IMG/VR virus record: IMGVR_UViG_3300037882_003354 | Coordinates: 62,001-126,000 of that record | DNA: 64,000 bases | Source: a virus | Strand: one strand, 5' to 3' | In this document: piece by piece, positions 16,852-37,573 of the stretch | How the letters are laid out: each line of letters opens with the position of its first letter | Numbering within the stretch: the stretch's first letter is position 1 | Program-made: the position numbers and the translations under genes | The notes under the pieces: generated by a model | Told to the model about the DNA's origin: nothing | Databases searched by the model: none | Seen by the model: only the letters and a program-made list of their open reading frames with translations

Positions 16852-19302
16852 TTAGAAAATAAACCAGTTGGTGCCATCAGATACCACGCCCAGGGAGGAA
16901 TTTGTATACTGTAGTATCATGTTGGCACCACCATCTATGGTATTGCCCCCTGTGCATGCCACAGTGATCTCCCCTGTTCCCACATTCTTTATCTGCATGT
17001 TCTTGCCGGTATTTATAGCGGCGCTGGGTAGGCTGATGGTAATGGTTCCCGACGCCAGTAATATGCCAGTGACATTGGTGATGGCAGTGTTGGATGAGGT
17101 GGTGACCACAGTGAATACTGAACTTCCACCACCGCTGCCCAGTGCAATGCCACCACTATAGACTGTGCCGCCCACATGCAGATCTCGTCCCACACCAGCG
17201 CCGCCATAGACCACCAGGGCACCGGTGATGGTGGATGTCGCTTGAGTGGTGGCAGTGTTGAATATGGCAGTGACCTTGTCTGTGCCAGTGCCTGCCACAA
17301 TTATTTTAATTTGAGTGCCTGCACCCAGTGTGCCAATTGCTAACTTTCCTTCACCTGGGGTGGAATTCTCACCCACCAGCAGATAGCCATCGTTAATTCC
17401 CAGATTGCTACCGAAACTGTTGGGTTGAGTGCCGTCCCAGAAACTACTGGTGATGCCCATGTCAATGAAGCCATTGCTTTCACTGACATTGTCAGCACTG
17501 GCCACAATGTCAGTGCTGGCCTGGGCACCAGCATTGATGTTCTGTACATTGATTTCCATGTAACTGTTTAGATCACCTGTGGCCTGGATCATGGTCTGAG
17601 CGAATGGCGTGTGGCCAACCACGCCGGCATATAGTGCACCGCTACCTGAGGCATCACCGAAGAAGGTGGCGCTGTTGGCGGCCACCACATTCAATGTCAC
17701 ACTGGTGCCAGTCACATATCCTGTGACATTCAAATTGCCAGTTAGATATCCGTCACCATTGATGTTAAATCCACTATTACCACCAATGCCACCTGCCACG
17801 TACAGAGCATTGGTACTGAATGAGCTGGTGCTGGACAGGGTGTTGGTGATCACCACCTGCTGATTGGTTGTACCAGTGAATGATCCCTGACTGCCAGTGT
17901 ACCCAATGTCACCTTGACTGCCTGTGTAGCCCAGACTGCCGACACTACCAGTGTACCCTGAAACTCCCTGTGACCCGGTGTAACCAAGATTCCCACTGGG
18001 TCCCAGGACGCCAGTCAGTTGTATGGACCAACCAGTGGCAGGGGTGGATATGGGTGTTCCACTGGAGCCCAATACGGTAAACGATATTTCCCAGCCAAAT
18101 CCACCGGCGTACAATATGTTGGTGATTTGTGCGTAATGATAAAAAGTGGATCCTGGTGTGGTGTTGATTACATTGACATAATTGCCTATGGCAAAGGCGC
18201 CGTACTCAGCAGTATACACACTGACCGTGGTGCCAATCAGACTGTTGTCAGCGGCCAGGTTGCTGCTGGTGGCCAAGGGTGTAAATCCAGTGCCGCTGCT
18301 GCCTGTATATCCAGTGTTGCCTTGACTGCCCACATATCCAGTTGATCCCATGACACCTTGACTGCCGACGTAACCTGAAATTCCCTGTGACCCAGCATAA
18401 CCAGTTGAATTCCAGCAGGTGTTGTTGATGTACAAGCCAGTGTCATCCACCCTGATACGCTCGCAGGCACCGGCACCTATTAGGACTGTACTCACACATG
18501 CAGCGGCTGCTGGCAGGCTGCCAATCACCGTGTTGTTGTATCCGGTGGTCAGCAGACAACCTGCACAGACACCCACACCAATGTTACCGCCAGTGGTGGC
18601 TCTTGAACAGTACAGAGACTGTGCACCCAGGGCCACATTATTACTGCCAAAGTTGTTGTTGAACAGCGCGCTGTGGCCCACTGCTGTGTTACAGCAGCCC
18701 GTGATATTATAGGCAAGTCCATAGTTGCCAATGGCCACGTTTGCACATCCGCAGGTGTTGTTCCAAAGTGCCCTCATGCCCAGGGCTGTATTACAATTGC
18801 CACAAGTATTACTGACCAGGGAACACGTGCCCACGGCTGTGTTATAGGAACCATTAGCATTTGCCAGCAATGCACATGTGCCCACGGCCACATTACGATC
18901 GCCATAGCAACTGTTTTGCATGGCGCACACACCTATGGCGATGTTATCACAACCACGCTTGTTACATTCCATGGCCAGATCGCCCAGGGCAATATTATTA
19001 CTATAAAAGACATCACCACCACCGCCAAATAGTGCTCTACGCCCAATGGCAATACTTCTCTCAAAAGATCGGAAGTTTCCGTCATTGCCCAGGGCTTGAG
19101 TGCCAATGGCCACAATGTGACATGAACAACAAGAAGACGCCAGCGCCTCATGACCAATGGCCACATTACAATGACCGCAGCCGGCGATCAATGAGCCGGC
19201 GCCCAGGGAAATATTACCGTTACCCAGCTGACGATAGCCCTGGGAAACGTTGCCAATGGCCACGTTATTACAGGCATTGTTCACGCCACCCAATGCCGAC
19301 AT
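16852..19302 (-). CDS. Hep/Hag-repeat adhesin with collagen-like segments (tail fibre), 816 aa
   Basis: Residues 1-290 are about ten YadA-head-like repeats of the form N-x-A-x-G-x-x-A-L, with unusual Cys residues (GNCNTALG, GCANVAIG, GCCNTAVG). Then comes ACERIRVDDTGLYIN, shared with the fibre at 33407. Two collagen-like runs of Gly-X-Y triplets follow (about 13 and 14 triplets, such as GYTGSQGVSGYTGSVG), separated by a beta domain. The C-terminus is a compact beta domain ending NWFIF. It is a trimeric fibre type, probably for host binding. The ATG at 19302 has no ribosome-binding site. The same frame stays open upstream in Hep/Hag sequence, so the gene looks separated from 19311-20039 by a -1 frameshift (see findings). 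Confidence 0.8.
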   Translation of the reverse strand: MSALGGVNNACNNVAIGNVSQGYRQLGNGNISLGAGSLIAGCGHCNVAIGHEALASSCCSCHIVAIGTQALGNDGNFRSFERSIAIGRRALFGGGGDVFYSNNIALGDLAMECNKRGCDNIAIGVCAMQNSCYGDRNVAVGTCALLANANGSYNTAVGTCSLVSNTCGNCNTALGMRALWNNTCGCANVAIGNYGLAYNITGCCNTAVGHSALFNNNFGSNNVALGAQSLYCSRATTGGNIGVGVCAGCLLTTGYNNTVIGSLPAAAACVSTVLIGAGACERIRVDDTGLYINNTCWNSTGYAGSQGISGYVGSQGVMGSTGYVGSQGNTGYTGSSGTGFTPLATSSNLAADNSLIGTTVSVYTAEYGAFAIGNYVNVINTTPGSTFYHYAQITNILYAGGFGWEISFTVLGSSGTPISTPATGWSIQLTGVLGPSGNLGYTGSQGVSGYTGSVGSLGYTGSQGDIGYTGSQGSFTGTTNQQVVITNTLSSTSSFSTNALYVAGGIGGNSGFNINGDGYLTGNLNVTGYVTGTSVTLNVVAANSATFFGDASGSGALYAGVVGHTPFAQTMIQATGDLNSYMEINVQNINAGAQASTDIVASADNVSESNGFIDMGITSSFWDGTQPNSFGSNLGINDGYLLVGENSTPGEGKLAIGTLGAGTQIKIIVAGTGTDKVTAIFNTATTQATSTITGALVVYGGAGVGRDLHVGGTVYSGGIALGSGGGSSVFTVVTTSSNTAITNVTGILLASGTITISLPSAAINTGKNMQIKNVGTGEITVACTGGNTIDGGANMILQYTNSSLGVVSDGTNWFIF

Positions 19303-20141: not shown

Positions 20142-21611
20142 TCATGCGAGTCCAAATCGTGCCTTGGTTGCGTTGTAGTTTTGCAAGATTTCAGCATTGT
20201 TCAATGCGGTGTTGTATATTCTGACAAGTCCGATGATACCATTGCGTTTATTTGTACTGTCATCTGTCATAAGAAACAGATCCGTGGCGGTGGCGCTATT
20301 GGGATAAGGATATGTTTGCGAAACACTTCTTATGGCTGTAGCAGAATTGATGGTCCGAATCATGTGGCCGTCAGCACCTCCAACTTTTCTAAGAGTAATT
20401 TGATACCAAGTGCCTGCGACAAGGTTTGGAGTGTTGACGGGTGTGTTAGACTGGGCAGACAGGTATTTAGACGAAGCCGCTATTCTATTATAGCTCGTCG
20501 TACCAGTTCCAATGTTACGTAATGCCCATGGTGTATTACTTGGATCCACATAACTGCTAATAATGGGAATTACTAGACTAGCAGTGGTTGTTGGTTTATA
20601 CCAAATTTCCACAGTCATGTTATCTGTATTGACCAATGAACTGAGACTGGCACCATATTGCGATGATGCTGCAACAAATGTCAACTGTCCCCCTGAAGTG
20701 CTGGAATCATATGCGGGAGTATTGTACAACGTCATGTCGGCTGTGCCCACCTGATCTCGCCAAACACCGCTACTATCGTATCCAACACCACTATATTTTG
20801 TGGGCGATACACCAGATGGGGCAGTATCAAAATAATTAGTAAGACCAGTGGTAGCGGCCGTGGTGGGTTGCGTATAAACAAATCTGGCTTGGACTGCATT
20901 ATAATTTTGCAGCACTTCGGCGTCCGTAATAATTCTATCATATGCTCTGATTATTGCAATGCTACCGTCCCCGGCCGATATGGTAGTTGCTCCAGTGGCG
21001 GGCACTACTGGGGAAACATCTGCGCTGGTGGCCACCAGAGCTCCGTTGACATAGAGTTTGACATATGATCCCAGACCAAAAGTCATGACCACCTGATTCC
21101 ATGCTCTGGGAACAAGATATTGATAAACATTATTAATAGTGGCACTAACGGGTGGATCCATGTTGTCACTCACAACAATCTGATTGTTTAACTCCCAACT
21201 TGGTACAAACCCGACGTTCACATTACAATTGATAATTATACCATCAGTTGACGGCACATAAAAATGCCAGGTTTCTATAGATAATTCAGTTAGAGGATCT
21301 TCACTTCCCGAAGTTGTTCCAAACGTGCCATTGAATGTTGCACTGATAAGAGGGGTAAATTCAAAACTACCACCACCAAATGTTGGCAAATATCGTATTC
21401 TAGCATTTGTTGTGATGTCCTCAACATATTCAGAATCTGGTGTGGGCAACCAATTACCAGTACCTGAATATGTTGCTGCATCAAAATCGTTGGTGCGACC
21501 CAAGGTGACCACCTCAGGTGGTGGCTCCGCCACTTGAACCCTGGGCACACGACTGGCCAGTGGGCTTTGGTGGGTGGCACCAGAGTTAATGCTGCCTATG
21601 CGATTCCACAT
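20142..21611 (-). CDS. Fibre protein with two LamG/concanavalin-like domains, 489 aa
   Basis: The N-terminal 25 residues (MWNRIGSINSGATHQSPLAS) are shared with the PA14 protein upstream and look like a virion attachment tag. Residues 45-245 and 255-489 are two LamG-type lectin domains, each ending in the typical RAYDRIITDAEVLQNYNA or RIYNTALNNAEILQNYNA. Such domains bind carbohydrates, so this is likely a receptor-binding or glycan-docking protein on the virion. There are no catalytic residues. Confidence in the LamG call is high. Confidence 0.8.
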   Translation of the reverse strand: MWNRIGSINSGATHQSPLASRVPRVQVAEPPPEVVTLGRTNDFDAATYSGTGNWLPTPDSEYVEDITTNARIRYLPTFGGGSFEFTPLISATFNGTFGTTSGSEDPLTELSIETWHFYVPSTDGIIINCNVNVGFVPSWELNNQIVVSDNMDPPVSATINNVYQYLVPRAWNQVVMTFGLGSYVKLYVNGALVATSADVSPVVPATGATTISAGDGSIAIIRAYDRIITDAEVLQNYNAVQARFVYTQPTTAATTGLTNYFDTAPSGVSPTKYSGVGYDSSGVWRDQVGTADMTLYNTPAYDSSTSGGQLTFVAASSQYGASLSSLVNTDNMTVEIWYKPTTTASLVIPIISSYVDPSNTPWALRNIGTGTTSYNRIAASSKYLSAQSNTPVNTPNLVAGTWYQITLRKVGGADGHMIRTINSATAIRSVSQTYPYPNSATATDLFLMTDDSTNKRNGIIGLVRIYNTALNNAEILQNYNATKARFGLA

Positions 21612-22885: not shown

Positions 22886-23668
22886 TTATGTCTTGATGTA
22901 ATTTAATAGTATGCTGTGATCACGGTGATCAGGGTGCCAGTCTGGGCGCATGAATTCCAGCACGGCACAGGTGACTGTCCAGAACACACCACATTGACGG
23001 TCAAACAACACGGCAACTGCATCCTTGAGTGTGCGCCATTTCCACAACTGGCCATCTGATCGCAGGAATATCACGGTGTTTTTCATCACATGGTACATGT
23101 AACACACGTAAACCAACAACATGACCCATCTTCTGTGATTGACACCGCCATCCACCAGTTGCCATACGTTCATGGCCACTGACTTGTGCTCGATTTCTTC
23201 CACGGCGTGCCAGCGCCAGATGGTTTCAAAATGTGGATGCATGCGGCGCAGAGCAGTTCTGTATCTCAGCAGGTATTCTGCATTGACTGCTGTCATGTGC
23301 TCAATGCACACAGTGGCGGTCAAACACACGCGATCGCTCCAACGTGTGCGTAGATGGGACCAAAATTTGTGCTGTCGCTGGGCCGCAGCCTGTGCCGGTA
23401 ATCCCTGCTGCTCCAGCCATTGTGTGTACTGTGCATGCACATGACCGTGCCAATTTTCCTGTTTGACAAAGGTATTGAAATCCACCAACTGCGCAGGATC
23501 TGTCACAGCGTGCCGATAGGCCTTGAGTGAATCTATGAAGAATCGTTCCCCGTCAGGAAAGTTTATATTCAGGGAATTCAACCAGTGTGTTTTGAATGGG
23601 CTGCCATCATTCCAATAATATGGAAGTTCTTGATCCCAATCTAATTTCAGTGGCTGTGACGTAAACAT
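22886..23668 (-). CDS. Ferritin-like di-iron enzyme (PF10118 'metal-dependent hydrolase' family), 260 aa
   Basis: The family pattern is clear: FVKQENWHGHVHAQY supplies the first E and H ligands, VCIEHMTAV the next, and WRWHAVEEIEHKSVAMNVW the E-E-x-E-H cluster of a four-helix di-iron core. The family is annotated as metal-dependent hydrolase, but its fold and ligands are those of di-iron oxygenases or desaturases. A hydrophobic stretch near residue 185 (WVMLLVYVCYMYHVM) may contact membrane or lipid. It is coupled to the downstream ACP gene, so a reaction on acyl-ACP (oxidation, hydroxylation or desaturation) is a reasonable inference. A GATAAATA motif lies only 5 nt before the start. Confidence 0.8.
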   Translation of the reverse strand: MFTSQPLKLDWDQELPYYWNDGSPFKTHWLNSLNINFPDGERFFIDSLKAYRHAVTDPAQLVDFNTFVKQENWHGHVHAQYTQWLEQQGLPAQAAAQRQHKFWSHLRTRWSDRVCLTATVCIEHMTAVNAEYLLRYRTALRRMHPHFETIWRWHAVEEIEHKSVAMNVWQLVDGGVNHRRWVMLLVYVCYMYHVMKNTVIFLRSDGQLWKWRTLKDAVAVLFDRQCGVFWTVTCAVLEFMRPDWHPDHRDHSILLNYIKT

Positions 23669-23678
23669 CAGATATTTA

Positions 23679-24446
23679 TCATGGATTATTCACTGATGTG
23701 ATGATCCAGAAATCTGAACTCATGCTGGTATTCTGCACCACTTGGTAGGGCATGTAGAAGTAACCGCGGTCACCCCAGCCGGTGCCCCAGGAATTTCTTG
23801 CTATGAATTGCTGAGTGCTGTCTCGATAACCCACCAGGGCCACCGCATGTCCCCCCAGCAACCGTTCTGTTTGAACATTGGGGTAGGGCATTTGTCCTGT
23901 ACGTGCCACCGCCAGGGTTTGAAAACTTGAATACACATTGAATCCCATGACCACAGGGTATCCCTGCGCCAGGGCTGTCTTGACTCCATCAAAGTCGGTT
24001 ATGCGACGATAGGCACCCACTCGTCGTTTGAGAGCGTCTTTGTATGCTGCCGCGCTGGGCTTGATGGCGAACCTGCCAATGATATAAGGCCACAGGCTTT
24101 CCAAGGGTGCACCAAATTTGTTCACAGCCTTGATGCCGTCTCGCAGGTAGGCGCCACTGTCATAGTTCACTGTGCCGTACAGCAACCGCTCCTGGTAATA
24201 GATGAACAGTCGGCTGACGTCCAGATTCTTCTTGGCTTTACGATTGAGGTATTCAACTAGTCCAGCAATGGCCTGGCCAGTGCATGATCCCAACTGCCCT
24301 TGGTTTTCTATGGGGCTGCATCCCGGTCTTAAATCCACCAGCGCAGGTAATGCCAATTGCGGTGCAGCATACAAGTAATCCCTGGCATCTGGTGGATCTG
24401 GACGCCAGTGTAATCGGGGTATGGTTATATTAGTTGGACGTGGCAT
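23679..24446 (-). CDS. Papain-like (C1A) cysteine protease, 255 aa
   Basis: The ATG at 24446 (MPRPTNITIP) has AGGA 8 nt upstream; the earlier TTG at 24473 lacks support. The catalytic residues are visible: Gln49 and Cys55 in ENQGQLGSCTG, His200 in LLGGHAVALVGY, and Asn218 in ARNSWGTGWGDRGYF. The short N-terminal part ends PPDARDYLY, like bacterial and viral C1A proteases that lack a long propeptide. No signal peptide is seen. Located between fibre genes, it may process virion proteins or be carried in the particle to attack host proteins. Family call is strong. Confidence 0.9.
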   Translation of the reverse strand: MPRPTNITIPRLHWRPDPPDARDYLYAAPQLALPALVDLRPGCSPIENQGQLGSCTGQAIAGLVEYLNRKAKKNLDVSRLFIYYQERLLYGTVNYDSGAYLRDGIKAVNKFGAPLESLWPYIIGRFAIKPSAAAYKDALKRRVGAYRRITDFDGVKTALAQGYPVVMGFNVYSSFQTLAVARTGQMPYPNVQTERLLGGHAVALVGYRDSTQQFIARNSWGTGWGDRGYFYMPYQVVQNTSMSSDFWIITSVNNP

Positions 24447-24505
24447 GTGTTTTTTCCTGGGTTGACTGTGCAAAAATCATTATAAGATTGTGAATAAGAT
24501 TTACG

Positions 24506-27500
24506 TCATTGTATGCTTACCAAATCAACATCCAACCTTTCTAACTTGTTGTGCACATAATCACTAATATATTCAGCGGTATACTGTGCAGGTTGTTCTT
24601 GTAGACGTAATCCTGAGATGTATTTGGGATCAATGTTGGCAAATTCTTCTAAAGATCTCAACGCTCTGTTGTCCTTGACAAACTTCATATCCCGAATAGG
24701 ATAGATGTTGTTAAATCTATTGCTGGTCAATATGCCTTGAGCAAACAGATTCAAGTGATACTGGGTCCATACGTTGTAAAACTTTACAGGTTCTTCAATA
24801 GTTTCTTTGGAAATCAGTGTGACTTCTTCACCCTGTTCATTAAATGTAATAGTTCCCACTGGCGTGGTATCTCTAACCAACATGGTAAACGCACCTGCTT
24901 GTTTATTAAACACATGGTGTCCCACTGTGCGTAACACAGTTCCATCACTGAATGTAAATCGATAGTGTTTGTCATGTGTTTCTTCCTGTTTAACAAACAC
25001 TGGCAATGCTTCGCTAAACTCACCCAAGTCAAAGTTCCATACACGAAGTAAATCATTGTACCTAACGTCCTCAATGGCTTTATATGAACCGTCAGCCATG
25101 GTGACCATGGTACCTTCGACCAGGCAAACCACACTCCATGCTCCTGTGTAGATATTACTAGTACATCCATTGAGTCCCGAGTCAATGGTTATTTGGGTAG
25201 TCAAATCACTCCCACTGCCATATAACCCAAGATCGGGCGATGTATATGTATTAGCACCAGGATTGACTGTCAGGGTGTGAGGGCCGCTAAATTCTCCGCC
25301 GCTGAACCATTCAAAGAAAATAGTACCTGTCGTGGATGTTGAAACAGTGGACGTAAAATCAACAGTTGCTGCCCTACTTTCAAAACCCACTGACACGTTG
25401 GTTATTGTCATAGTTGCCGGCACAATCACTGGCACATCAACACTTGTGGTCACACCGTTATTGGTGGTAACACGAGCAGTGGCGTCAACAGTTGGCGCAA
25501 CTGATCCCAAGAACAGTCGAGTATTTGCATCAACAGTATATGTTGTTGTGGGTATAAATGGTGCCAGATACTTGGCCGTGTTGCTGATTCTAACTAAAGA
25601 CATCTTACCGCTTAAGGTGCCACCGTTTGCTGGACCCAGTCGACCTATACGCAATGGGTCTACAGAGTTGGTATAACTGGCTGTGCCAAATGTACCACTA
25701 ACCTTGGTCTGTTCAATACCATTGTACCAGACCGTTTGTGTGCTTGCGTTGTTGACTATGGCCACATGCGTCCATACACCTGGAGTAGGTTCGGTGTATC
25801 GGACATCTTCGTTAGCGCCACTACCTGATAAGAATACCAGTTTGTTATCGCTCAATGCCACAACCACGGCGTTGGTGGTACTCCAGCCCACTTGGTTTAA
25901 TAATCCCCAGATGCCGCCACCCGCTGTATCTGATGCGGCATTGGCTTTGAGCCAGAACTCTATGGTCCAAGTTGTGCCCAGATTAAACGGAGCATTTGCA
26001 GGGTCATACAGGCTGTAGTTTTCGTCCATGTATAAATTGTCTGCCAACTTTGGAGCCCAGGTCAGGTCCCAGGTTGTGCCACCATCTGAGACGCCTGTGA
26101 GCGTTACTTGATAGGGTACACCAGTCCCCTGTTGGCCAACGAGTATCCAGCCCACTTGTGGTTCTGGATAACTGCCTTTGAGGATATCACCACCTGATAT
26201 AGTGCCGCTCCACGCATGACTGGTGGCGGTGCCCAGCGCGGTGTAACTTGGCTGTGCCACTGATAGGTAATCGTTTTCACTATTTACAAACTGTAGACTT
26301 TGATAACTTGGAAAGTCATTGCTGATCACTGCTCCATTATTGGTAATAGAATGTCTAGCACCACTGAAGTTGTATGGACCAGGAGTGGGCACATTAGTAA
26401 CTGGTACTCCCCAATTGTCAGGATCTGCTGAGACTACTGCTCCAGTGACAGTTGCGGTAGTTGATGTGTTTAATGAACTTACTATATCTCCTGCCTTTAT
26501 TTGATTATTTAAATTGGGATATGTTGACTTAGAGAAATACATGGTATCTAAATTATTAGTAAATATCGATACTTCATTCAACTCATAATTAGATAGATCG
26601 GTCAGCGGACTATCACTGCCCAACATCAGTCGAGTGTCTGCGCCAGCACCATAGGACAACGATGGGCTAAAGTTTGCCAGATACGTGGCTGTGTTGCTGA
26701 CTCGGATCATGGCCAGTTTACCAAGGAAGCCTTGCCCGTTCACTCCTAGTCTACGGCCAATGTTTACATCCGATGATCCATCACTTAATGCGCCTGGGCT
26801 TACTATGGTTCCCTGATGTACTCCATTATAGTATACCTTGGTGTCACCACCCCCATTGGCCACATAGGCCACATGGTTCCATATTCCCGGTGTGGGTTCA
26901 GGAATTCCGCTCTGTTGGACATTTCTGAACAGCGTGCTTCCATACATAAATCCTAAATCTATCTTGCCAGCGTCCGGACCTTGTGACATCACAGTTCGTA
27001 TGTTGCTGGTGCTGGCATTGGTTTGTTTGCTCCAGAACTCAACGGTGTATGTTGTGCCCAGGTTCCAATCAGCTTGTGTGTTGGATACCAATAGATATGG
27101 ATTTCCTGCTGGGAAGTCTAGACTAAATGGGGCCACTAGTGATAGACTGGTGTCGTTGATGGTGACTGAAGTGCTGGTGCTTAATATTGTGCCGCTGGTG
27201 CTAGCCGAACGCAGGGCAACCGTGAATGTCTCACTGCCTTCAGTGGTAGTATCAGCAGTGGGTGTTACTGAGAATGAACCGCTATTGCTGGTAATGCTGA
27301 ATGATCCAAATGTTGTACCAAAATCACCCGTGTTGGTTTGAACAGTCCAATAATACGTTCCGTTGACAATGTTTGTACCTGTGACATTAAATGTTATTGC
27401 TGAACCTTCGTTAGTGCTGGTTGTTGCTGGTGTTAAAGTATACAGGGGTGGTGGGGGAGGGGGAGGTGTATAACCACCACTGGACGCAATGGCTCCCGCT

Positions 27501-27520
27501 AATGTTTGAACAATGCTCAT
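24506..27520 (-). CDS. Fibre protein with Calx-beta, two LamG domains and a C-terminal Hint domain, 1004 aa
   Basis: After a start with a seven-proline run (residues 19-25), residues 28-135 form a Calx-beta-like domain (STNEGSAITFNVTG, TTEGSETFTVAL). Two LamG/concanavalin domains follow (about 135-295 and 500-670), each with SLVRISNTAKYLA-type ends. A beta region leads to a Hint (Hedgehog/intein) domain at about 799-935: C799 in CLVEGTMVTMADG, TVGHHVF as block B, and YHLNLFAQGILTSNR at the end. About 70 residues follow. Hint domains self-cleave. The final Asn is followed by Arg rather than Cys, Ser or Thr, so cleavage rather than splicing is expected. AAGGA lies 8 nt before the ATG. Confidence 0.85.
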   Translation of the reverse strand: MSIVQTLAGAIASSGGYTPPPPPPPLYTLTPATTSTNEGSAITFNVTGTNIVNGTYYWTVQTNTGDFGTTFGSFSITSNSGSFSVTPTADTTTEGSETFTVALRSASTSGTILSTSTSVTINDTSLSLVAPFSLDFPAGNPYLLVSNTQADWNLGTTYTVEFWSKQTNASTSNIRTVMSQGPDAGKIDLGFMYGSTLFRNVQQSGIPEPTPGIWNHVAYVANGGGDTKVYYNGVHQGTIVSPGALSDGSSDVNIGRRLGVNGQGFLGKLAMIRVSNTATYLANFSPSLSYGAGADTRLMLGSDSPLTDLSNYELNEVSIFTNNLDTMYFSKSTYPNLNNQIKAGDIVSSLNTSTTATVTGAVVSADPDNWGVPVTNVPTPGPYNFSGARHSITNNGAVISNDFPSYQSLQFVNSENDYLSVAQPSYTALGTATSHAWSGTISGGDILKGSYPEPQVGWILVGQQGTGVPYQVTLTGVSDGGTTWDLTWAPKLADNLYMDENYSLYDPANAPFNLGTTWTIEFWLKANAASDTAGGGIWGLLNQVGWSTTNAVVVALSDNKLVFLSGSGANEDVRYTEPTPGVWTHVAIVNNASTQTVWYNGIEQTKVSGTFGTASYTNSVDPLRIGRLGPANGGTLSGKMSLVRISNTAKYLAPFIPTTTYTVDANTRLFLGSVAPTVDATARVTTNNGVTTSVDVPVIVPATMTITNVSVGFESRAATVDFTSTVSTSTTGTIFFEWFSGGEFSGPHTLTVNPGANTYTSPDLGLYGSGSDLTTQITIDSGLNGCTSNIYTGAWSVVCLVEGTMVTMADGSYKAIEDVRYNDLLRVWNFDLGEFSEALPVFVKQEETHDKHYRFTFSDGTVLRTVGHHVFNKQAGAFTMLVRDTTPVGTITFNEQGEEVTLISKETIEEPVKFYNVWTQYHLNLFAQGILTSNRFNNIYPIRDMKFVKDNRALRSLEEFANIDPKYISGLRLQEQPAQYTAEYISDYVHNKLERLDVDLVSIQ

Positions 27521-27529
27521 TGTTGATCC

Positions 27530-30500
27530 TTAATCGTTGTCGTAAATGTCAGCACCAGCAACCATCCAAACGTCACCGTCGTTTTCACTATCGTCTGAAC
27601 GTGTGCCTTCTCTGATCTTGATTAAGGTAATCATTTGTCCACTACCGTTGTCTGGGAATCGAATCCACTGAGTTTTGGTATCGCCTCCTGACAACCACAT
27701 CTCGCCTCGAAGGCCGTCATTTTCACATTCTACATAAGCATCGTTGTTGCTGATGTTGACCAAGGTCACAGTATATCCCACGGGCAGTGTGACTCGTTCC
27801 CAGTTGGGAATAATCACATCATAGTTACTGTCTTCAATAAGAATATGTCTGCCTGAATCTTCAGGACGTAGCATATAACGACCAGCACTGATTCTCACCT
27901 GCGGTACAATGGCTGTGCTGAATGTCTGACGACTACCATCGGCAAACTCAACAGCACCGCCTTGGTTGCTCCGGATCACCTGTGGATAGAATGTGAAGTC
28001 ATAGTCAGGATAGTCAGTGTAGTAATATTTCACGTTGTCCACGCTGGTAATACCACCAGTATGCTCTGTGGCAGTAAATGCGGTCGATGTTCTACCACTC
28101 AGTCTCCAAACTTGGATTCTCTCATCGTCAAGTTCCGCATAGGTCCATAAACCGTGTAGGCCAACGCCCGTGCCGTCCAATGGCAGTGTGACAATGAACG
28201 CATTGTTATCATTGTCATCATTTGGAGCATCAGTAAAGCCCACCAAGGTAAACTGGTCACCGTGTATACTCAGGGCCTTGTTGCCATAACCCTGATAGCA
28301 CATTTGCGTGTCACTTTCATGAACGCCAAATAGACGCTTCCAAATGACTTCTCCATCAGTGTCTAGTTTGACAATCGCAATGGCCTGATCGTTAACCAAA
28401 TCACTACCGTCATCGTGTTCACAAGCAATTACAATCTCATCTGTGGCAGGATCCACTGCCACACTGATGTTGCTTTCTGGACTTCGCCACTGGCCATTAC
28501 CGTTTTTATAACCAATGAACTGTTGCCATATGATGTTTAGACTGCTGTCTAACTTGGTGACCAACACTTCGTCAGTCTCATCATGGTCCTGGTTATACTG
28601 ATCGTGAACTACCACAATTGAGTCGTTGGCCATCAGGGCCACTGCTCCTCGATTGGCAGAGTTGTTGCCCAGGTTGTTGTTGAGGAACTTGCTGGCTACC
28701 AATGTGCCTGTGCTGGAAAACTTGACCACCAGAGCTTGGTCATAGTTGACTTCATAGGTGCCTTGACCCACGGCATACAAGTGTGTGCCAGCCGCGTTCC
28801 AAACAACACCAGTGAAAGCATCGTCGGTTATGCCACCAATGGCCTTGGTAAAGTCCGGAGTCCAAACAAATGCCTCCCCATCCATGTTCTGCTTGATGGC
28901 AAATGTTGTGCCGGTTGCAGCATAGTCAACACTGGCATCGGTGGTTAACTGTAGGTGTGTTGATGCATGTGTGCCAGTTGAAGTGTCAATGTCTATAATC
29001 GCGCCGCCGGCGCCATCAGCATTGGTAACTGTTACGGTGATATTATTAGCAGGTGCTGTGCCACCAGCAAAACTTGTTCCTAGAATGGTAATAACATCAC
29101 CAGTAACATAGTCTTCACCAACAGTGGCAACTTGGGTACTGCTAACGGTTCCAGTAGTTGGATCAAAGTTTATATTGAATACCGCTCCAATACCAGTTAG
29201 ATAGTTGGTGCCTGTTACCAATGTGTATTGCGTAGATGTACCAGTTGAAGTTCCACTGTTGCTCACACTACTTATAGCACCCGAAGTTGAAGCGTCCACT
29301 GTAATGATACAATCGTTAGTACCATCCACTCCACCCAGTGCCGAACCTAATACTTTGATCTTGTGTCCTACTAGATAGTCTGTACCGCTGTTAGTAATTG
29401 CCGTGACAGAGTAAGAGCCGGTACTGATAACTTCATATGTGATTGACTGCGGCACTTCGTTTAATCCCTCAGTACCAGAAGCCCATACTCCAGTCCAAAT
29501 CACATCCACTCCTGTGTTAGTTGTTTTGTTATTAGTTGTGAATGTCTGAGGGCCACCACCTGTAATAACTGTGAATACTGTTCCGGTAGACAGGGCTTCA
29601 AAAGTATCGTAGTCAGTACCAATATTCCAATCTGCCTTGGTGGCTGTGATAGTAGCAACGCCGGGTTCTCCCACAACACTTAGACCAACTCCGAATGAAG
29701 TCGATGTATAAGTAGTACTGGTACTAGTCCCAGTTTTATCAATGGTGAACACTGCACCACTACCCTGTTTAACTGTGCCAGTCGATCCTGTATATTGGTT
29801 TACCGTCTGAACTCGAATCTGGTCAGTGATACCAGTGCCAGTAATCCACCAGTCACTAATACTGCTGCCGCCCGGAATATCTTCCCCTGGAAAGTGTTCA
29901 GCATCAATGTCTGCCTTGGTAACCCAAAGTTTATCTACCGCACTGCCCGCCAATGGAGTAATAGTACCGTATTCTGTGTATTCGTTGAACTTTTCACCCA
30001 CAACAGCAATCTTACCAGTAACACTGACATCAGTGTCGATAGCGTAGACATCACCTTCATCTTTAAGCGTAGTTGTGCTGACCACTGCGCCTGAACCTGA
30101 ATCCATGGTTACGATCACTGTTTCTGACCAGTTGCCGTCAAGGTTAAACATGTCAGAGTCACCCAACTCTGTTGAAGTTATGATGATGACCTCAAGGTTG
30201 CCAGAGACTGGATTGTAGGTCATTGACCTTATTTCGCATTCCGCGTCGTCATTATAGTCTTGAACGGAGGTATATGTATTTGAATGGCCAACTGCGCCGG
30301 TGCCGCTGTCAATAGTAACTGTGGCTACTTCTCCAACATAGTCATTAGCATTGGTAATAGTTGCTACTTCTAACACCAGTGTATTACTGGCATCTCCTCC
30401 AAGATCCTCACCATCGATAAGGATCCTATCACCCACTTTATAGTTATTGCCGCCATAGGTCACTATGGGAGTAGCATAGGTGCCGGTTGTAACCGTCACA

Positions 30501-32446
30501 GTGAACTCAGCACCCGAACCGCTGAATAGTTCTCTCTGCCATACTACCGCACCTTCTGGGGTAAATTTATAAATGTAGGCGCGGTCTCCGTCAAACCAGT
30601 TACTGCCCACGGCATAGGCAAAACCTTCAGCATCGTGACATACACTTTCAAACCAAATGTCACTGCTTGTGTTAGGGAACCTGCCGTACATGGTGGCGTA
30701 GCCCAACTGACGTTGTTGCAGTCGAATGTCAGCATCTGCTGGTGCTGTAAATGTGCCGTCCTTGCCAAATGTCCAGGTGTTGACCCGACTGGCTGTGCGT
30801 CTCACACTGACACTCACTGCCTGTGTGGCGATACTGGCCGTGCCGCCTTCAGTCATGGCAATATCATTTTGTAGAGACACTGGACCGTTGACTGCCACCA
30901 GAGTGTTGGTCAATCTGCCGGGAATACGGCTTGTTGACAGTGTCCAACCATCTGCTATGAATTTGGTGGCATCGGTGTCAAACTGTGCCAAGAAGCCTTG
31001 ATTAAAGTATTTTTCGTAGCTCCACGGTGCGTCAAGATCTGCGTCACTTTGGCCAAGTCTTACCGCACCACCAATAAGAATCTTCCCGTCTTGTACAGCC
31101 ATTAAGTCTGTGGCGACTCCGCCAAATGGACCATCGTTACCATATCCTGGAACTTCTTGTGCCAACGGATTGTCAAAATAACTTTGCCAAATCACAGCAC
31201 CTGTGGTCTTGTTGTATCGGGCCAAGGCCAATCGATTGGTGTAATAGCCTGCATCACTACCTTCTACTTCGGACAGGGGGTTTAATTCGTAGGTGCTGGC
31301 GTATAGATATAGATCACCGTCGTCGCCCACTGCGGTGCTGACACCAACCCAATCACACGCTCCTGGACCAACTCTACGATCCCAGGCCATGGCACCCAGT
31401 GTGGTCATCTTGAATAAGACAACAGCATTGCTTTTACCTGAAGAAACAAAATTGTCGCCTGGGTTGTCCACATAATATGTGCCGGCAACATAGATGTTGC
31501 CAATTGAGTCGAGACTTAGATTCCAGGCCTCACCAAAAGGTGTGTCATTTTCCAGTCTCACTGACTTTTGCCAACCCGATCCGCCAAGGGCAGTGATCTT
31601 GGCCACTAACATTTCGTCGTTTGTAGCAGTGGCTCCGTTGACTGTGCGTTCAACTTCAGCTTTGCCCACCGCAACGATGTCGTCATTGAAATCAACTGCC
31701 ACTGAGTAAATGCTTGAGGCACCGCTGTCAACAGTCAAAGACTTTTGCCAAGTGATGTCAGTGGCAGTAGGGTTCAGTTTGGCCACAAACGCGGTAGTAG
31801 TTGCGGCGCTGGTGAAATAAAAGTCGCCACCAATGATGATGTTGTTGCCACTGTCAACTGCCATGGCCCGGATCTCGAAATTGCTGGCCAAGTTCAATTC
31901 TTCACTGAATACAACAGCACCAGTGTCACCGTTGAGTTTAACAATGATCTTAGTGGTACCACTGTCTGGATTTACCACAAGCAAGATGTTATCAGCACTG
32001 TCAATCACAGCATTGCTTTCTGGGTAGAAGCCATTGTCGACAGCATCTATGCTTTTCTTCCAAACCAAGTGACCTGCTGGTGTAAACTTGGCAACTGCCA
32101 CACCGTCATCGTTTAGATTGAGTCGAGCAACAACAATGGCGTTGCCCAGACTGTCGTAGTTGGTGCTATAGACTGTGACACCTTTAGTGGCAACTGGGTT
32201 GCTGCTGTCTTCTCTACGCAGTCGAACCAACCAACGATCCGCATCGCCAGTTTGAACTGTGATAGCACCGTCACTGGCCAGATCATCGCCAACACCGTAT
32301 TCAAGTGAATTCCAACGGCTGGTACCGTCACCATACTTGATCTTGCCAGTGTCGGTTTCTAAACCTGGTTCACCAGCCGCCAGTATGGGATTGACACTGG
32401 TCCAGTTGGCCTCTGTGTCTCTGCGTAGTTTAATTCGTGTTGCCAT
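27530..32446 (-). CDS. Giant beta-propeller-type tail fibre, 1638 aa
   Basis: I start at the ATG giving MATRIKLRRDTEANW, with GGAG 7 nt upstream. The first 50 residues (LAAGEPGLETDTGKIKYGDG) are the short attachment domain found at the start of many phage receptor-binding proteins (Mtd N-terminal type). Repeats with alternating phrases like NIYVAGTYY, LVAKITA and GWQKSV over residues 90-480, and again at 1230-1480, look like propeller blades. The middle (about 700-1230) has Thr/Gly-rich repeats (AVFNINFDPTTGTVSS type). It is the largest protein in the window and probably binds the host receptor. No catalytic motif was seen. Confidence 0.8.
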   Translation of the reverse strand: MATRIKLRRDTEANWTSVNPILAAGEPGLETDTGKIKYGDGTSRWNSLEYGVGDDLASDGAITVQTGDADRWLVRLRREDSSNPVATKGVTVYSTNYDSLGNAIVVARLNLNDDGVAVAKFTPAGHLVWKKSIDAVDNGFYPESNAVIDSADNILLVVNPDSGTTKIIVKLNGDTGAVVFSEELNLASNFEIRAMAVDSGNNIIIGGDFYFTSAATTTAFVAKLNPTATDITWQKSLTVDSGASSIYSVAVDFNDDIVAVGKAEVERTVNGATATNDEMLVAKITALGGSGWQKSVRLENDTPFGEAWNLSLDSIGNIYVAGTYYVDNPGDNFVSSGKSNAVVLFKMTTLGAMAWDRRVGPGACDWVGVSTAVGDDGDLYLYASTYELNPLSEVEGSDAGYYTNRLALARYNKTTGAVIWQSYFDNPLAQEVPGYGNDGPFGGVATDLMAVQDGKILIGGAVRLGQSDADLDAPWSYEKYFNQGFLAQFDTDATKFIADGWTLSTSRIPGRLTNTLVAVNGPVSLQNDIAMTEGGTASIATQAVSVSVRRTASRVNTWTFGKDGTFTAPADADIRLQQRQLGYATMYGRFPNTSSDIWFESVCHDAEGFAYAVGSNWFDGDRAYIYKFTPEGAVVWQRELFSGSGAEFTVTVTTGTYATPIVTYGGNNYKVGDRILIDGEDLGGDASNTLVLEVATITNANDYVGEVATVTIDSGTGAVGHSNTYTSVQDYNDDAECEIRSMTYNPVSGNLEVIIITSTELGDSDMFNLDGNWSETVIVTMDSGSGAVVSTTTLKDEGDVYAIDTDVSVTGKIAVVGEKFNEYTEYGTITPLAGSAVDKLWVTKADIDAEHFPGEDIPGGSSISDWWITGTGITDQIRVQTVNQYTGSTGTVKQGSGAVFTIDKTGTSTSTTYTSTSFGVGLSVVGEPGVATITATKADWNIGTDYDTFEALSTGTVFTVITGGGPQTFTTNNKTTNTGVDVIWTGVWASGTEGLNEVPQSITYEVISTGSYSVTAITNSGTDYLVGHKIKVLGSALGGVDGTNDCIITVDASTSGAISSVSNSGTSTGTSTQYTLVTGTNYLTGIGAVFNINFDPTTGTVSSTQVATVGEDYVTGDVITILGTSFAGGTAPANNITVTVTNADGAGGAIIDIDTSTGTHASTHLQLTTDASVDYAATGTTFAIKQNMDGEAFVWTPDFTKAIGGITDDAFTGVVWNAAGTHLYAVGQGTYEVNYDQALVVKFSSTGTLVASKFLNNNLGNNSANRGAVALMANDSIVVVHDQYNQDHDETDEVLVTKLDSSLNIIWQQFIGYKNGNGQWRSPESNISVAVDPATDEIVIACEHDDGSDLVNDQAIAIVKLDTDGEVIWKRLFGVHESDTQMCYQGYGNKALSIHGDQFTLVGFTDAPNDDNDNNAFIVTLPLDGTGVGLHGLWTYAELDDERIQVWRLSGRTSTAFTATEHTGGITSVDNVKYYYTDYPDYDFTFYPQVIRSNQGGAVEFADGSRQTFSTAIVPQVRISAGRYMLRPEDSGRHILIEDSNYDVIIPNWERVTLPVGYTVTLVNISNNDAYVECENDGLRGEMWLSGGDTKTQWIRFPDNGSGQMITLIKIREGTRSDDSENDGDVWMVAGADIYDND

Positions 32447-32465
32447 TACTCTGCTCCGATTATTT

Positions 32466-32669
32466 TTATGCTGTGCCGCCGTCCAACTCAATGTCTATCA
32501 GTGGATCGTATACTGACCCAGCGTACAGTCCATCCAGTGCATATAATGCCTGTTGAGTGGTCAAGGCCTGCTTTGCAGACCAGCGATCGCCAGTCCAGAT
32601 GTAGGTGACTGTATTGTCTGCTAGATAGTTCTGCCCCACTGCAGGGTTGACTGGGAAAATTATTGCCAT
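32466..32669 (-). CDS. Short fibre-base-like protein, 67 aa
   Basis: It consists almost only of the short motif MAIIFPVNPAVGQNYLADN followed by TYIWTGDRW, the same type of N-terminal attachment unit as in the genes at 19311 and 39007, and a short helix. A CATAAATA late motif and AGGA precede it. It may be an independent adaptor for fibres or the remains of a fibre that lost its shaft. Confidence 0.65.
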   Translation of the reverse strand: MAIIFPVNPAVGQNYLADNTVTYIWTGDRWSAKQALTTQQALYALDGLYAGSVYDPLIDIELDGGTA

Positions 32670-33406: not shown

Positions 33407-36400
33407 TTATGTTAGTCCTGTTCCGTTGATGTACCACACGCCACTGGAACTTGTGCCACTGACCTTGACTGCTGTGGCCATGCCGTTGGCTGCCAGAGTT
33501 CGGGTGCCAGTGCTTGTGCCACCTGCCAATCTCAATGTATCTGTGGTAATGGCGATCAGCACTGTGGTGGCACTTGCACCTGCTATGAATGTAATGGTGG
33601 TTCCAATGGGATATGCCACTGATGCGGCCGCTGGAATAGTTATGGTCTGACCTGCGGTTGTCACATAAATGTGTTTGCCAGCATCACTCATGGTCAACGT
33701 GGTAGTGCCAGTGGCGTTTTGTGGCAGGCCCATGTATCCCACACTGGCGGCTGTGCTTGCTGTTGTGGCCGCTGAAGCCTGGGCAGTTATACTGGCGGCA
33801 GTCACAGTTCCACCCACAAACATGCCACCGCCCACGCCCACACCACCAGCAACAGTTAGTGCACCTGTGTTTGTTGATGTCGCGGCAGTTGTATTAGTTG
33901 TTTGAATAATGTCGTCTGTTTGAATAAGAGTGGTAGTTACTGTGGTAAGTTCAATTGTTAATTTTTGTGCAACAATTTCTCCACCAACATACAAGTTACC
34001 GCCAATGCCAACTCCACCGGTAACAACCAATGCACCTGTGGCGGTAGATGTTGATGATGTGGTGTTTGACATCACAAATGTTGATGTGGTACCAGTATTA
34101 GTCCATGCTGTGGTCTGAACTGTTGAGTCTGGGAATGTTATTGTTCCAGTTGAACTGAGACTAAGTGTAGATGTACCGTTAACTAGTGTCGATGTCGAAG
34201 TTGCTCCGGTATAGGCTGTGGTCTGAACTGTTGAGTCTGGGAATGTTATTGTGCCAGTTGTTCCAAATGTCCAATGATTGGTATTGGTATTAGTAGTAGT
34301 GTTGGTACCAATGACAACATTGCCGTGATTTTTTTCAATCTTAACATACTGGTCATCATCACCTAGATATAGATCAACTGTGACAGGATCACCTGACAGC
34401 AGATGTATGTGATTTGTTTCAGTATTGACAGGGTCAGCAGTTGGACGAATGACCAAACTCTGGCCAGCAACGGCCCCAGGTGGTGATATAACTGTGGTGG
34501 TGGTTGTTTCACCAATGGTGCTACCTTGGGGTAATGTTATTGTGCCAGTTGTTCCAAACGTCCAATGACTGCTGCCAGAACCCAGTCCCATGTTGCCTGT
34601 ACTGCTAATGTTGTCATATCTTGCAGGCGGTGTGCCGCTGACATAGGTTGGTATTGTGCCAGTAATTGTTGCGCCTGCTGAGTCCAGGGCAAAATTAAAT
34701 GTTATATCATTACCAATACCAGTACCATCGCCGGTTCCGCCAGGGAAAGTGGTGCCAGGTACACTTAGGTTAATAGTACCGTCAGGTGGCCCGTAACCAC
34801 CGACACCCAAAGTTACTATTGCGTCGCTAATAGTCCCATCAGGCTGAACAGTAAAAGTCAACTGTGTTTCCCCATAACCCACTTCTATATTAGAAAAAGT
34901 TGTTGGCACATAATTCCACAGCACTGTTGGTAATGTTGTAGTACCATCACCACCAAATGTCCATGCCTTGCTATTGACTGTGAGGTCCACAGTTCCGCCT
35001 GTGTTGGTGGCAACTAGTCCACCAAAGTCACTGGTGTAAGTGGGCTGTGAAACATTATTTTTCCACTGTAAGTCTAAAGTACCACTACCGGCAATATTGG
35101 CATATAGCACCTTGTAGGAAACTATCTGCCCTTGTGTCAGTACAACCACTGCTGGAGTGTTTATTTCTGGAACTGGACTGATATCGCCATCGATTATAAT
35201 GAAATAATAATCGTCAGCAGATACGTTAAACGTGTAAGTGCCGGCTTCTGGTGCTCTAAAGTATCCAGTAAGTTCCCAAGTTTGTTCAGAAATACCTGTC
35301 CAATAGATGGGATTAACGATGTCTGTAATGTCAGCAGTCCATGTGGCCATTGACGATGACAATTCACCATACGTTGGAAGAGGAAGAGCGTACCCGCCCA
35401 CATACTCACTATAAATGTTTCTAGTCAGTCCCGATGTGGTACCAAGTTGAAGTCCCACATCGAGAACTCCGCTGTTTGGAAATGTTATACCACCAGCTCC
35501 ATTAGTTCCACTTAATGTCAACATGCCCGAAGCAGGGTTGATTGTTACTTTAGATGTACTCTGCCATGCGTCATCCGCATAAAATGTCATCCAAGCATTA
35601 CCACTTGTGCCATCACCATTAACCGGAGGTAACATTCCAGTGTAGGCGGAACTCTGAACTGTTAAGTCTGGAAATGTTAGACCGCCATCAGTACCAAATG
35701 TCCATGTTTCAGTTCCAACTATGACGTTGACAGTGTTAACCCCTGTGTTAACTGTACTAGTAGGAACAGGTAGTCCACCCGTGCCATTACTCCAAGTAAT
35801 TAGGTCATCAGTTGATATGTATTTTGCATCGAGGCCTTGAACAATAAACCAAACCCCGGGACTGATTTCTTCAATAGTTACACCATTACTACCTGTATAA
35901 AGTGTGGGACTAGTATTGATGTAGGTTTGGTTTACTGCGGCCAGTCCGGCACCAACAAGAGTAAGTGTTTCAGCACCAAGGGTTTCATTAATCACGCCAC
36001 CTTGAGGTAATGTCAACGCACCATCAGTAGCAAATGTCCAATGATTGGTATTTGTACTGGTTGCAATGACCACATCACCACCGTTCTTCTCAATCTTGAC
36101 ATACTGATTGTCGTCGCCCAGGTACAGATCAACTGTGACAGGATCACCTGACAGCAGATGTATGTGATTGTTTTCTGAGACTGCTGAGCCGTCCAGGGTG
36201 ACTGTGATGTCAATGGGCAGCCCAGAGGTGCCTCCAAATCCAGTTGCGGTGGTCAGAGCAAATGTAAAGGTGGTCATGCTGCTCAATGCAGGTATGGTCC
36301 AGGTCAGTGAGGTGGTGGTGCTGGTGGCCTCAATCACCAGTGTGCCAGTGGTTCCGGTGCCCAATTGTTGGGTGGTGGCTCCAGTGAATTCATAATCCAA

Positions 36401-37573
36401 TGTGCCGCCAGCATTGCCCATTGTATCTGTCGCTGTTATGGTTATACTTTCACCTGGAACAAAACCACCTGGGTGATCTGTTGATAAAGCAAATGTTCCC
36501 ACAGTGGGACGAATGACCAGACTCTGTCCTGCCAGTGCACCCGGAGGTGTTAGCACCATGGTGGTGGTCGTTTCAGCTATGGTGCCGCCTTGTGGAAGAG
36601 TTAATGTGCCGGTTGATCCCAGTACCACGCTGTAACTTCCAGTGGTCAATCTGTCAACTGCCACCGGATTGCCGTTTATATACAGCCCAGTATTATCAAC
36701 ACGCATGCGCTCACAGGCACCAGCGCCAATTAACACAGTGCATGCGCAGCCGGGGGCAGCTGGCAGACTGCCAATGATGGTGTTGCTAATTCCGGTGGTC
36801 AACAGACATCCTGCACTGGCACCAATGCCAATGTTACCGCCATAGCCACCATACGAATTTGCGCGCATCAGAGCCGAGTTGCCTATGGCCACGTTGTTGT
36901 TGCCAGAGATATTGGCGCACAGGGCTACATTACCCAATGCTATGTTGTTGCTGCCATTGCAGGTGTTGGCCAGTGAACGACATCCAATGGCAATGTTATT
37001 ATTTCCGTAACCATATCCGGCTTCTGAATCTCCAGTGCGTTGCAATCGATAGGCGGAGCATTGTCCAATGGACACATTGTTGTCATTGCCATAGTTATTG
37101 CAAAATTGTGACCTATGACCCAATGCAACATTGTTGCAGCCAGACCTATTGTTGACCAATGACTGACATCCCACAGCAATGTTGTTGCTACCGTCGTCGT
37201 TAAAACTTAATGATTGATAACCGATGGCGGTATTGTTGCAACCATATCCATTGCTGTAGAGCGCACATTTACCCTGTGCAAAGTTGTTGGACCCTATGCT
37301 ATTGGTGAAGAGTGCCTGTGTGCCCAGGGCTGTATTACTACAACCGCTGGCGTTGCCGTATAATGCCTGGAAGCCCACGGCCACGTTATCTTTACTGTTG
37401 CCATTGGCCGAAAGCCCACCGCCTCCCAGAAATAAACTGCAACGTGCATCAAAAGTCACGTTGCCCACGCTGCCGGTGTATCCAGTGAGGTCAAAATATC
37501 TTTGAACTCGATATGCTGTGATCAAGTCTTCACGTGAAAAGTCGTCGCTGTTTATTCCGTTGGCTGTTGGCAT
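33407..37573 (-). CDS. Hep/Hag-repeat tail fibre with PA14-like insert, 1388 aa
   Basis: Residues 55-300 are about nine YadA-head-like repeats (SNNIALGNVAL, NNNVAIGNSAL), again with Cys-containing variants. They end in the block ACERMRVDNTGLYING shared with the gene at 16852. The shaft has repeated units TLPQGGTIAETT and GDPVTVDLYLGDD, the latter in two copies. Around residues 720-860 is a PA14-like domain (GYFRAPEAGTYTFNVSADD). The tail repeats GALVVTGGVGIGGNLYVGG-type units and ends in a small beta domain (SGVWYINGTGLT). It is a trimeric adhesin-type fibre, probably for host attachment, with clear recombination kinship to 16852-20039. Confidence 0.8.
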   Translation of the reverse strand: MPTANGINSDDFSREDLITAYRVQRYFDLTGYTGSVGNVTFDARCSLFLGGGGLSANGNSKDNVAVGFQALYGNASGCSNTALGTQALFTNSIGSNNFAQGKCALYSNGYGCNNTAIGYQSLSFNDDGSNNIAVGCQSLVNNRSGCNNVALGHRSQFCNNYGNDNNVSIGQCSAYRLQRTGDSEAGYGYGNNNIAIGCRSLANTCNGSNNIALGNVALCANISGNNNVAIGNSALMRANSYGGYGGNIGIGASAGCLLTTGISNTIIGSLPAAPGCACTVLIGAGACERMRVDNTGLYINGNPVAVDRLTTGSYSVVLGSTGTLTLPQGGTIAETTTTMVLTPPGALAGQSLVIRPTVGTFALSTDHPGGFVPGESITITATDTMGNAGGTLDYEFTGATTQQLGTGTTGTLVIEATSTTTSLTWTIPALSSMTTFTFALTTATGFGGTSGLPIDITVTLDGSAVSENNHIHLLSGDPVTVDLYLGDDNQYVKIEKNGGDVVIATSTNTNHWTFATDGALTLPQGGVINETLGAETLTLVGAGLAAVNQTYINTSPTLYTGSNGVTIEEISPGVWFIVQGLDAKYISTDDLITWSNGTGGLPVPTSTVNTGVNTVNVIVGTETWTFGTDGGLTFPDLTVQSSAYTGMLPPVNGDGTSGNAWMTFYADDAWQSTSKVTINPASGMLTLSGTNGAGGITFPNSGVLDVGLQLGTTSGLTRNIYSEYVGGYALPLPTYGELSSSMATWTADITDIVNPIYWTGISEQTWELTGYFRAPEAGTYTFNVSADDYYFIIIDGDISPVPEINTPAVVVLTQGQIVSYKVLYANIAGSGTLDLQWKNNVSQPTYTSDFGGLVATNTGGTVDLTVNSKAWTFGGDGTTTLPTVLWNYVPTTFSNIEVGYGETQLTFTVQPDGTISDAIVTLGVGGYGPPDGTINLSVPGTTFPGGTGDGTGIGNDITFNFALDSAGATITGTIPTYVSGTPPARYDNISSTGNMGLGSGSSHWTFGTTGTITLPQGSTIGETTTTTVISPPGAVAGQSLVIRPTADPVNTETNHIHLLSGDPVTVDLYLGDDDQYVKIEKNHGNVVIGTNTTTNTNTNHWTFGTTGTITFPDSTVQTTAYTGATSTSTLVNGTSTLSLSSTGTITFPDSTVQTTAWTNTGTTSTFVMSNTTSSTSTATGALVVTGGVGIGGNLYVGGEIVAQKLTIELTTVTTTLIQTDDIIQTTNTTAATSTNTGALTVAGGVGVGGGMFVGGTVTAASITAQASAATTASTAASVGYMGLPQNATGTTTLTMSDAGKHIYVTTAGQTITIPAAASVAYPIGTTITFIAGASATTVLIAITTDTLRLAGGTSTGTRTLAANGMATAVKVSGTSSSGVWYINGTGLT

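Follow-up and report, generated by a model that had tools for sequence, protein, structure and literature searches.

The last 206 residues of a 1004-residue fibre-like protein appear to form a single Hint-plus-tail cassette with the layout of the hedgehog Hog domain, predicted to perform thioester chemistry at its N-terminal end and so to free or transfer the end of the fibre, a reading to which we give slightly better than an even chance. The protein is encoded in a stretch of 64,000 nucleotides, hereafter called the window, taken from virus record IMGVR_UViG_3300037882_003354; its features are collected in table 1. The record, of 322,512 bases, also encodes a tail sheath stabiliser of T4 type (E 5.6e-22), which makes it probable that the virus is a large phage with a contractile tail. 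Genes near that of the 1004-residue protein match families of tail fibres, tail spikes and virion structure (27530-32491, with Mtd_N, 33407-37573, 20142-21611 and 16852-19302), and by inference from these neighbours we take the protein to be a fibre of the virion. The two LamG domains of the initial annotation agree with two stretches matched to Laminin_G_3 (Pfam gives the position of the better one, residues 139-278), whereas the Calx-beta domain that it had also named has no Pfam hit at E <= 1. Elsewhere in the window, near the fibre genes, a 1540-residue protein (8479-13101) has PHROG matches to glycosyltransferases and methyltransferases.

Table 1. Features of the fibre-like protein gene and of the adjacent peptidase gene, in window coordinates
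Feature	Coordinates	Strand	Basis
Whole gene, 1004 residues, lectin-bearing fibre-like protein with C-terminal Hint-tail cassette	24506..27520	-	ATG start, open reading frame
First Laminin_G_3 domain, residues 139-278	26687..27106	-	Pfam, E 1.7e-21
Second lectin-like stretch, residues 497-716	25373..26032	-	Best stretch of PHROG 3545
Hint domain (predicted), residues 799-934, cassette positions 1-136	24719..25126	-	AlphaFold2, Foldseek, VIA, profile match to 6y75
Cys799, cassette position 1, predicted nucleophile of N-S acyl shift	25124..25126	-	Cys in 93/93
His868, cassette position 70, block B histidine	24917..24919	-	His in 93/93; aligns with His of BIL2 domain
Asn934, cassette position 136, position of intein-type terminal Asn	24719..24721	-	Asn in 21/93
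Conserved tail, residues 935-1004	24509..24718	-	Conservation; high-confidence model together with Hint
Papain-like C1 peptidase gene, 32 bases downstream of fibre gene	23679..24473	-	Pfam Peptidase_C1, E 4.8e-15

Fold and conservation of the cassette

The Hint domain begins with CLVEGTMVTMADG, from Cys799 on, and ends at Asn934, directly followed by Arg935. Searched as a single sequence, it gives only sub-threshold Hint matches in Pfam (PT-HINT, E 0.057, 17.2 bits under a curated cut-off of 27.7; Hom_end_hint, E 0.069). With a profile of seven rows, four PDB chains match at E below 0.001, all of them chains of one Tetrahymena BIL domain; with 41 rows, 6y75/6tmm match at E 3e-9, and the sole further match at E <= 0.01 is a chain annotated as intein-containing. 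AlphaFold2 modelled the Hint domain and the tail together from the 41 rows with pLDDT 96.6 and pTM 0.91, a run that replaced a shallow one of seven sequences (pLDDT 56). Foldseek places BIL2 first (E 3e-11), among inteins, and VIA likewise finds BIL2 best (Z 17.5, 1.8 A over 136 residues), with the hedgehog Hint domain 1at0 near behind (Z 14.6, 2.1 A over 133 residues). On the strength of this model we regard the Hint fold of residues 799-934 as secure: the domain that the initial annotation had placed from Cys799 is upheld by the profile, Foldseek and VIA matches alike, and the structure prediction, a check that it had proposed, returned a Hint fold.

Scans of IMG/VR and GTDB genomes yielded 97 loci besides the window; one scan found 86 relatives, and 80 of them were kept. 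From the 98 sequences 93 were aligned, with 61 representatives below 90% identity; the rows dropped were L015, L046 and L090, cut by a contig end, L052, with a broken frame, and L067, with an incomplete Hint domain (an earlier count, over 41 representatives, had left out seven rows). Of the further marks of the Hint superfamily, the N-terminal Cys/Ser nucleophile (here always Cys) and the block B His are present in 93/93 aligned sequences each, and Cys1 and His70 belong to only nine positions that are invariant across the 61 representatives. The block B Thr is absent from 16 of these. The cassette is under purifying selection, because dN/dS is about 0.1 against two relatives (0.11 over 206 codons with L001, 0.10 over 200 codons with L009). 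By its residues, the Hint domain 799-934 is probably catalytically active.

The end of the domain presents a different picture. Position 136 is Asn in the minority of table 1 and otherwise Cys (24), Met (16), Leu, Arg or other residues, and the preceding position 135 is Ser or Gly in all 93 sequences and His in none. Three changes are required to place Asn136 on the tree, and well-supported branches force two of these; in the branch to which the window belongs, all 13 rows have it. Because Asn is this infrequent and position 135 is never His, Asn cyclisation cannot, from the alignment, be the common chemistry of the Hint-plus-tail unit, and the weight that had been laid on the terminal Asn has to be withdrawn. 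The residue at +1 is Arg in the window and in 81/93 sequences, which bears out the earlier claim that the protein does not splice; the cassette was rejected as an intein on the same grounds, there being no Cys, Ser or Thr for splicing at this position.

The Hint domain had at first been regarded as the functional terminus of the protein, which overlooks that about 70 conserved residues come after it. Within this tail Lys151 and Arg174 are invariant (93/93), Tyr142 and Glu177 are found in 92/93, and the mean column entropy of positions 137-178 (1.50) is close to that of positions 1-135 (1.58), position 136 standing at 3.07. A search with the tail only matched 40 contigs, all of them, when compared by eye, known contigs of the Hint cassette; in three of these (L015, L046 and L090) the end of the contig truncates the Hint part. 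Because the tail is as conserved as the Hint core and is found only with it, the Hint domain and the approximately 70 residues behind it are best described, at the level of sequence, as one conserved unit. Compared alone with solved structures, the tail gave no similarity, and the VIA alignment rows barely cover it. It is hydrophilic (mean GRAVY -0.86), and a sterol is therefore an unlikely acceptor for it to bind.

Relatives, exchange and gene neighbours

No curated family clearly recognises the cassette: in Pfam, NCBIfam and PHROGs 41 members match weakly, the best at E 3e-6 (Hom_end_hint), and the first of these members, the one for which family cut-offs were given, lies below them. With cassette queries from different branches, tblastn found no match in 50,697 phage records, a collection that may lack records close to the window, and a DNA similarity search of the phage collection found no match to the window. 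A Gaeavirus protein in BFVD, named as Hint-containing, matches over 201 columns with 47% identity; the cassette has therefore already been sequenced and named. Some relatives lie on very large contigs (418,068, 414,060, 354,809, 354,680, 238,135 and 228,849 bases). Two cassette frames (L048:8001-8543 and L097:696-1274) are interrupted only by TAG codons, which suggests that these phages translate TAG as an amino acid. A more diverged Hint domain, in which the tail motif is not evident, ends an 804-residue protein with a hydrophobic N-terminal segment in a Clostridia MAG (L158:2267-4681).

The cassettes of the window and of L002, L003, L010, L011 and L012 are 68-73% identical, and the N-terminal parts of these proteins have no BLASTP match to one another (E <= 1e-3). 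The reverse case is found between L022 and L069, with 92% identity over 122 N-terminal residues and 70% in the cassette. Among 51 N-terminal parts, Pfam recognises collagen repeats in five, Laminin_G_3 in three, and a YadA head, Mtd_N and BppL_N in one each. To judge by these comparisons the cassette is exchanged between fibre-like proteins that are not related to one another, as would be expected if it acts on whatever precedes it. At L069 and L071 the cassette gene comes directly after a gene of a cluster (33) whose member at L072 is a tail sheath stabiliser of the T4 gp15 type.

Downstream of the window's fibre gene (22886-24473), a papain-like peptidase that looks active is accompanied by a hydrolase predicted to be metal-dependent (PF10118, E 1.6e-65). 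Relatives of the peptidase cluster in 5/98 loci and are adjacent in three, being directly downstream in L009 and L086; it is thus a possible partner of the cassette protein, not a general one. A HAD-like gene occurs in the neighbourhood cluster of 35/98 loci (14/61 representatives), mostly sharing one base with the cassette gene in the coordinates used, and was rejected as a general partner because it is absent at the window locus. At L021 (8615-9112) this gene is HAD_SAK_2-like (Pfam, E 2.2e-17) and directly follows the cassette gene, as in 34 other loci.

Thirteen loci come from GTDB genomes, and seven of their proteins show by eye a prepilin-like N-terminus (L056, L058, L059, L062, L063, L064 and L065); a text pattern recovered five of the seven, missing L059 and L064. 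Of the five that were compared with Pfam N_methyl, L065 is over the cut-off, L056 and L063 are below it, and L058 and L059 are unmatched (L062 and L064 were left out). The neighbouring genes, again by eye, resemble those for S-adenosylmethionine synthetase, IMP dehydrogenase, serine hydroxymethyltransferase and ribosomal proteins; these neighbourhoods look chromosomal and argue against phage contigs, with errors of MAG binning as a caveat. A SecA-family cluster is present at L059, L060, L061, L063 and L064, with SecA domains shown for L060. In one Clostridia MAG (L157, G007:C22:9000-20198) three cassette genes stand in a row (614, 638 and 674 residues) with a SecA-family gene after them, and another genome also has three cassette copies.

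Proposed reaction and rival readings

The reaction that we propose would start after folding, when Cys799, helped by His868, would attack the carbonyl of Val798 in an N-S acyl shift, leaving a thioester that would join fibre and cassette. Its resolution by water or another nucleophile would either leave the fibre ending at Val798, with the Hint-tail cassette shed, or hand the fibre end to an acceptor. The tail would most likely shape the active site or present the acceptor, as the last ~70 residues of hedgehog do, and cleavage at Asn934 would be at most a side reaction of the window's subclade. By analogy, N-terminal thioester chemistry is likely the common activity of the cassette, which may serve to trim the tips of surface fibres or to attach them chemically. 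This proposal draws on the contrast between the universal Cys1 and His70 and the infrequent Asn136, on the vicinity of the fold to both BIL2 and the hedgehog Hint domain, on a tail that is conserved like the Hint core, found only with it and kept by selection, and on the exchange of the cassette between unrelated N-terminal parts. Against it stand the absence of the block B Thr from part of the representatives, the tail, which matches no solved structure and is hydrophilic, unlike a sterol-binding region, and the residue at -1. The latter is Pro or Ile in 33/58 representatives, a count over the 61 that omits the window (Val), L065 and L066. From work on inteins, Pro or Ile at -1 slows N-terminal cleavage; their frequency here could mean a reaction that is slow, controlled or dependent on an acceptor, or none.

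A special case of the proposed reaction, with hydrolysis and no transfer, is that the cassette is a C-terminal chaperone or trimer cap that removes itself by thioester hydrolysis once the fibre has folded. Its C-terminal position on exchangeable fibre-like proteins would fit this, and C-terminal chaperones of phage fibres removed by autoproteolysis provide a precedent, as described in excerpts of PMC10579305; we nevertheless hold it to be possible rather than probable, given that the cassette is also borne by chromosomal pilin-like proteins, which are not known to need caps, and that Pro and Ile are frequent at -1. The same residues would be put to use if the Hint domain kept the fibre, or the pilin-like protein, bound at its end in a protected thioester until contact, when the tail would pass this end to a nucleophile on the surface of the target cell or on another protein of the virion. 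Pro or Ile would then guard the bond against loss to water, and phage fibres and bacterial pilin-like proteins would be fixed covalently by a hedgehog-type reaction, a scheme that we consider improbable.

The remaining readings place the activity elsewhere or deny it. A Hint fold serving as a non-catalytic tip or receptor-binding domain could account for the loss of the block B Thr, and seems distinctly unlikely when Cys1 and His70 are among the nine invariant positions, a pattern hard to explain without catalysis; a purely structural head was set aside for this reason. Cyclisation of Asn934 with release of the 70-residue tail is implied by the Asn-Arg reading of the initial annotation and is what some BIL domains would suggest, being able to cleave at either end (according to excerpts of PMC5874633), and Asn is indeed fixed in the window's branch; the tail is conserved in members that lack this Asn, and with the scarcity of Asn and the missing penultimate His this makes such a release very unlikely. 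Least probable of all, and by our estimate scarcely credible, is processing by the neighbouring papain-like peptidase, with the Hint domain only marking the site: the gene is close by and has directly downstream relatives at two other loci, yet it accompanies few cassettes, whereas Cys1 and His70 are universal.

Comparison with known systems

BIL domains have a conserved terminal His-Asn motif. The closest match of the cassette in sequence and fold is BIL2 of Tetrahymena BUBL1 (6y75, 6tmm), with other BIL domains such as 2lwy, and from these it differs by its conserved 70-residue tail and its end, where Asn is infrequent and preceded by Ser or Gly. Its C-terminal flank, without a Cys, Ser or Thr nucleophile, resembles that of A-type BIL domains as excerpted in PMC5874633.

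The thioester of adhesins such as SfbI is a Cys-Gln side-chain thioester, not a backbone one, and belongs to another fold. In these surface proteins a thioester makes the covalent bond to the target, a parallel to the reading of a covalent fibre tip only (PMC4450167). Intramolecular chaperones of the S74 type are likewise C-terminal modules on phage fibres that process themselves (excerpts of PMC10579305), as is predicted for the cassette, which differs in fold and catalytic residue; for 41 members, 13 Pfam families are listed at E <= 0.1, and the S74 model is not one of them. PT-HINT domains have weak Pfam similarity (7/41 members at E <= 0.1), and a toxin-releasing HINT was rejected because the window scores below the cut-off and a conserved tail, not a variable toxin, follows the Hint domain. 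Buerglin's survey of 2008 mentions bacterial proteins that end in a Hint-like domain, a signal peptide being present in some (PMC2362128), and excerpts of three phage genome papers deal with inteins in enzymes. Among the matches listed in the literature on Hint domains of phages, fibres and pilins there is no such cassette, subscription papers being mostly uncovered and an earlier description possible. Within the Hint superfamily the cassette is apparently a variant that has not been described before; its layout is Hog-like, and it is not to be filed under the hedgehog, intein or BIL families.

If the proposed reaction is true, hedgehog-style autoprocessing would take place at the fibre tips of large phages and in chromosomal pilin-like proteins by means of one exchangeable module. 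The cassette offers a testable candidate route for the maturation or covalent attachment of phage fibres, and compact Hog-like modules for the chemistry of protein C-termini might be derived from it. The comparison with hedgehog had been made in the initial annotation and is strengthened by the match to 1at0 and by the ~70 residues after the Hint domain. In hedgehog, a thioester arises between the first Cys and the residue before it, and transfer to cholesterol requires the last ~70 residues, as set out in excerpts of PMC4695875 and PMC7906309, which lends weight to the reaction proposed here; the same 2015 review (PMC4695875, in part) states that no structure of the hedgehog region after the Hint domain was available, and in the cassette there is now a 206-residue system for asking what such a region does. 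The cassette shares with the Hog domain the invariant first Cys, the Hint fold, the ~70 residues that follow it and an exchangeable N-terminal part (excerpts of PMC4695875), and differs from it in its hosts, which are phages and bacteria, and in a hydrophilic tail that is likened to the SRR/ARR by its layout.
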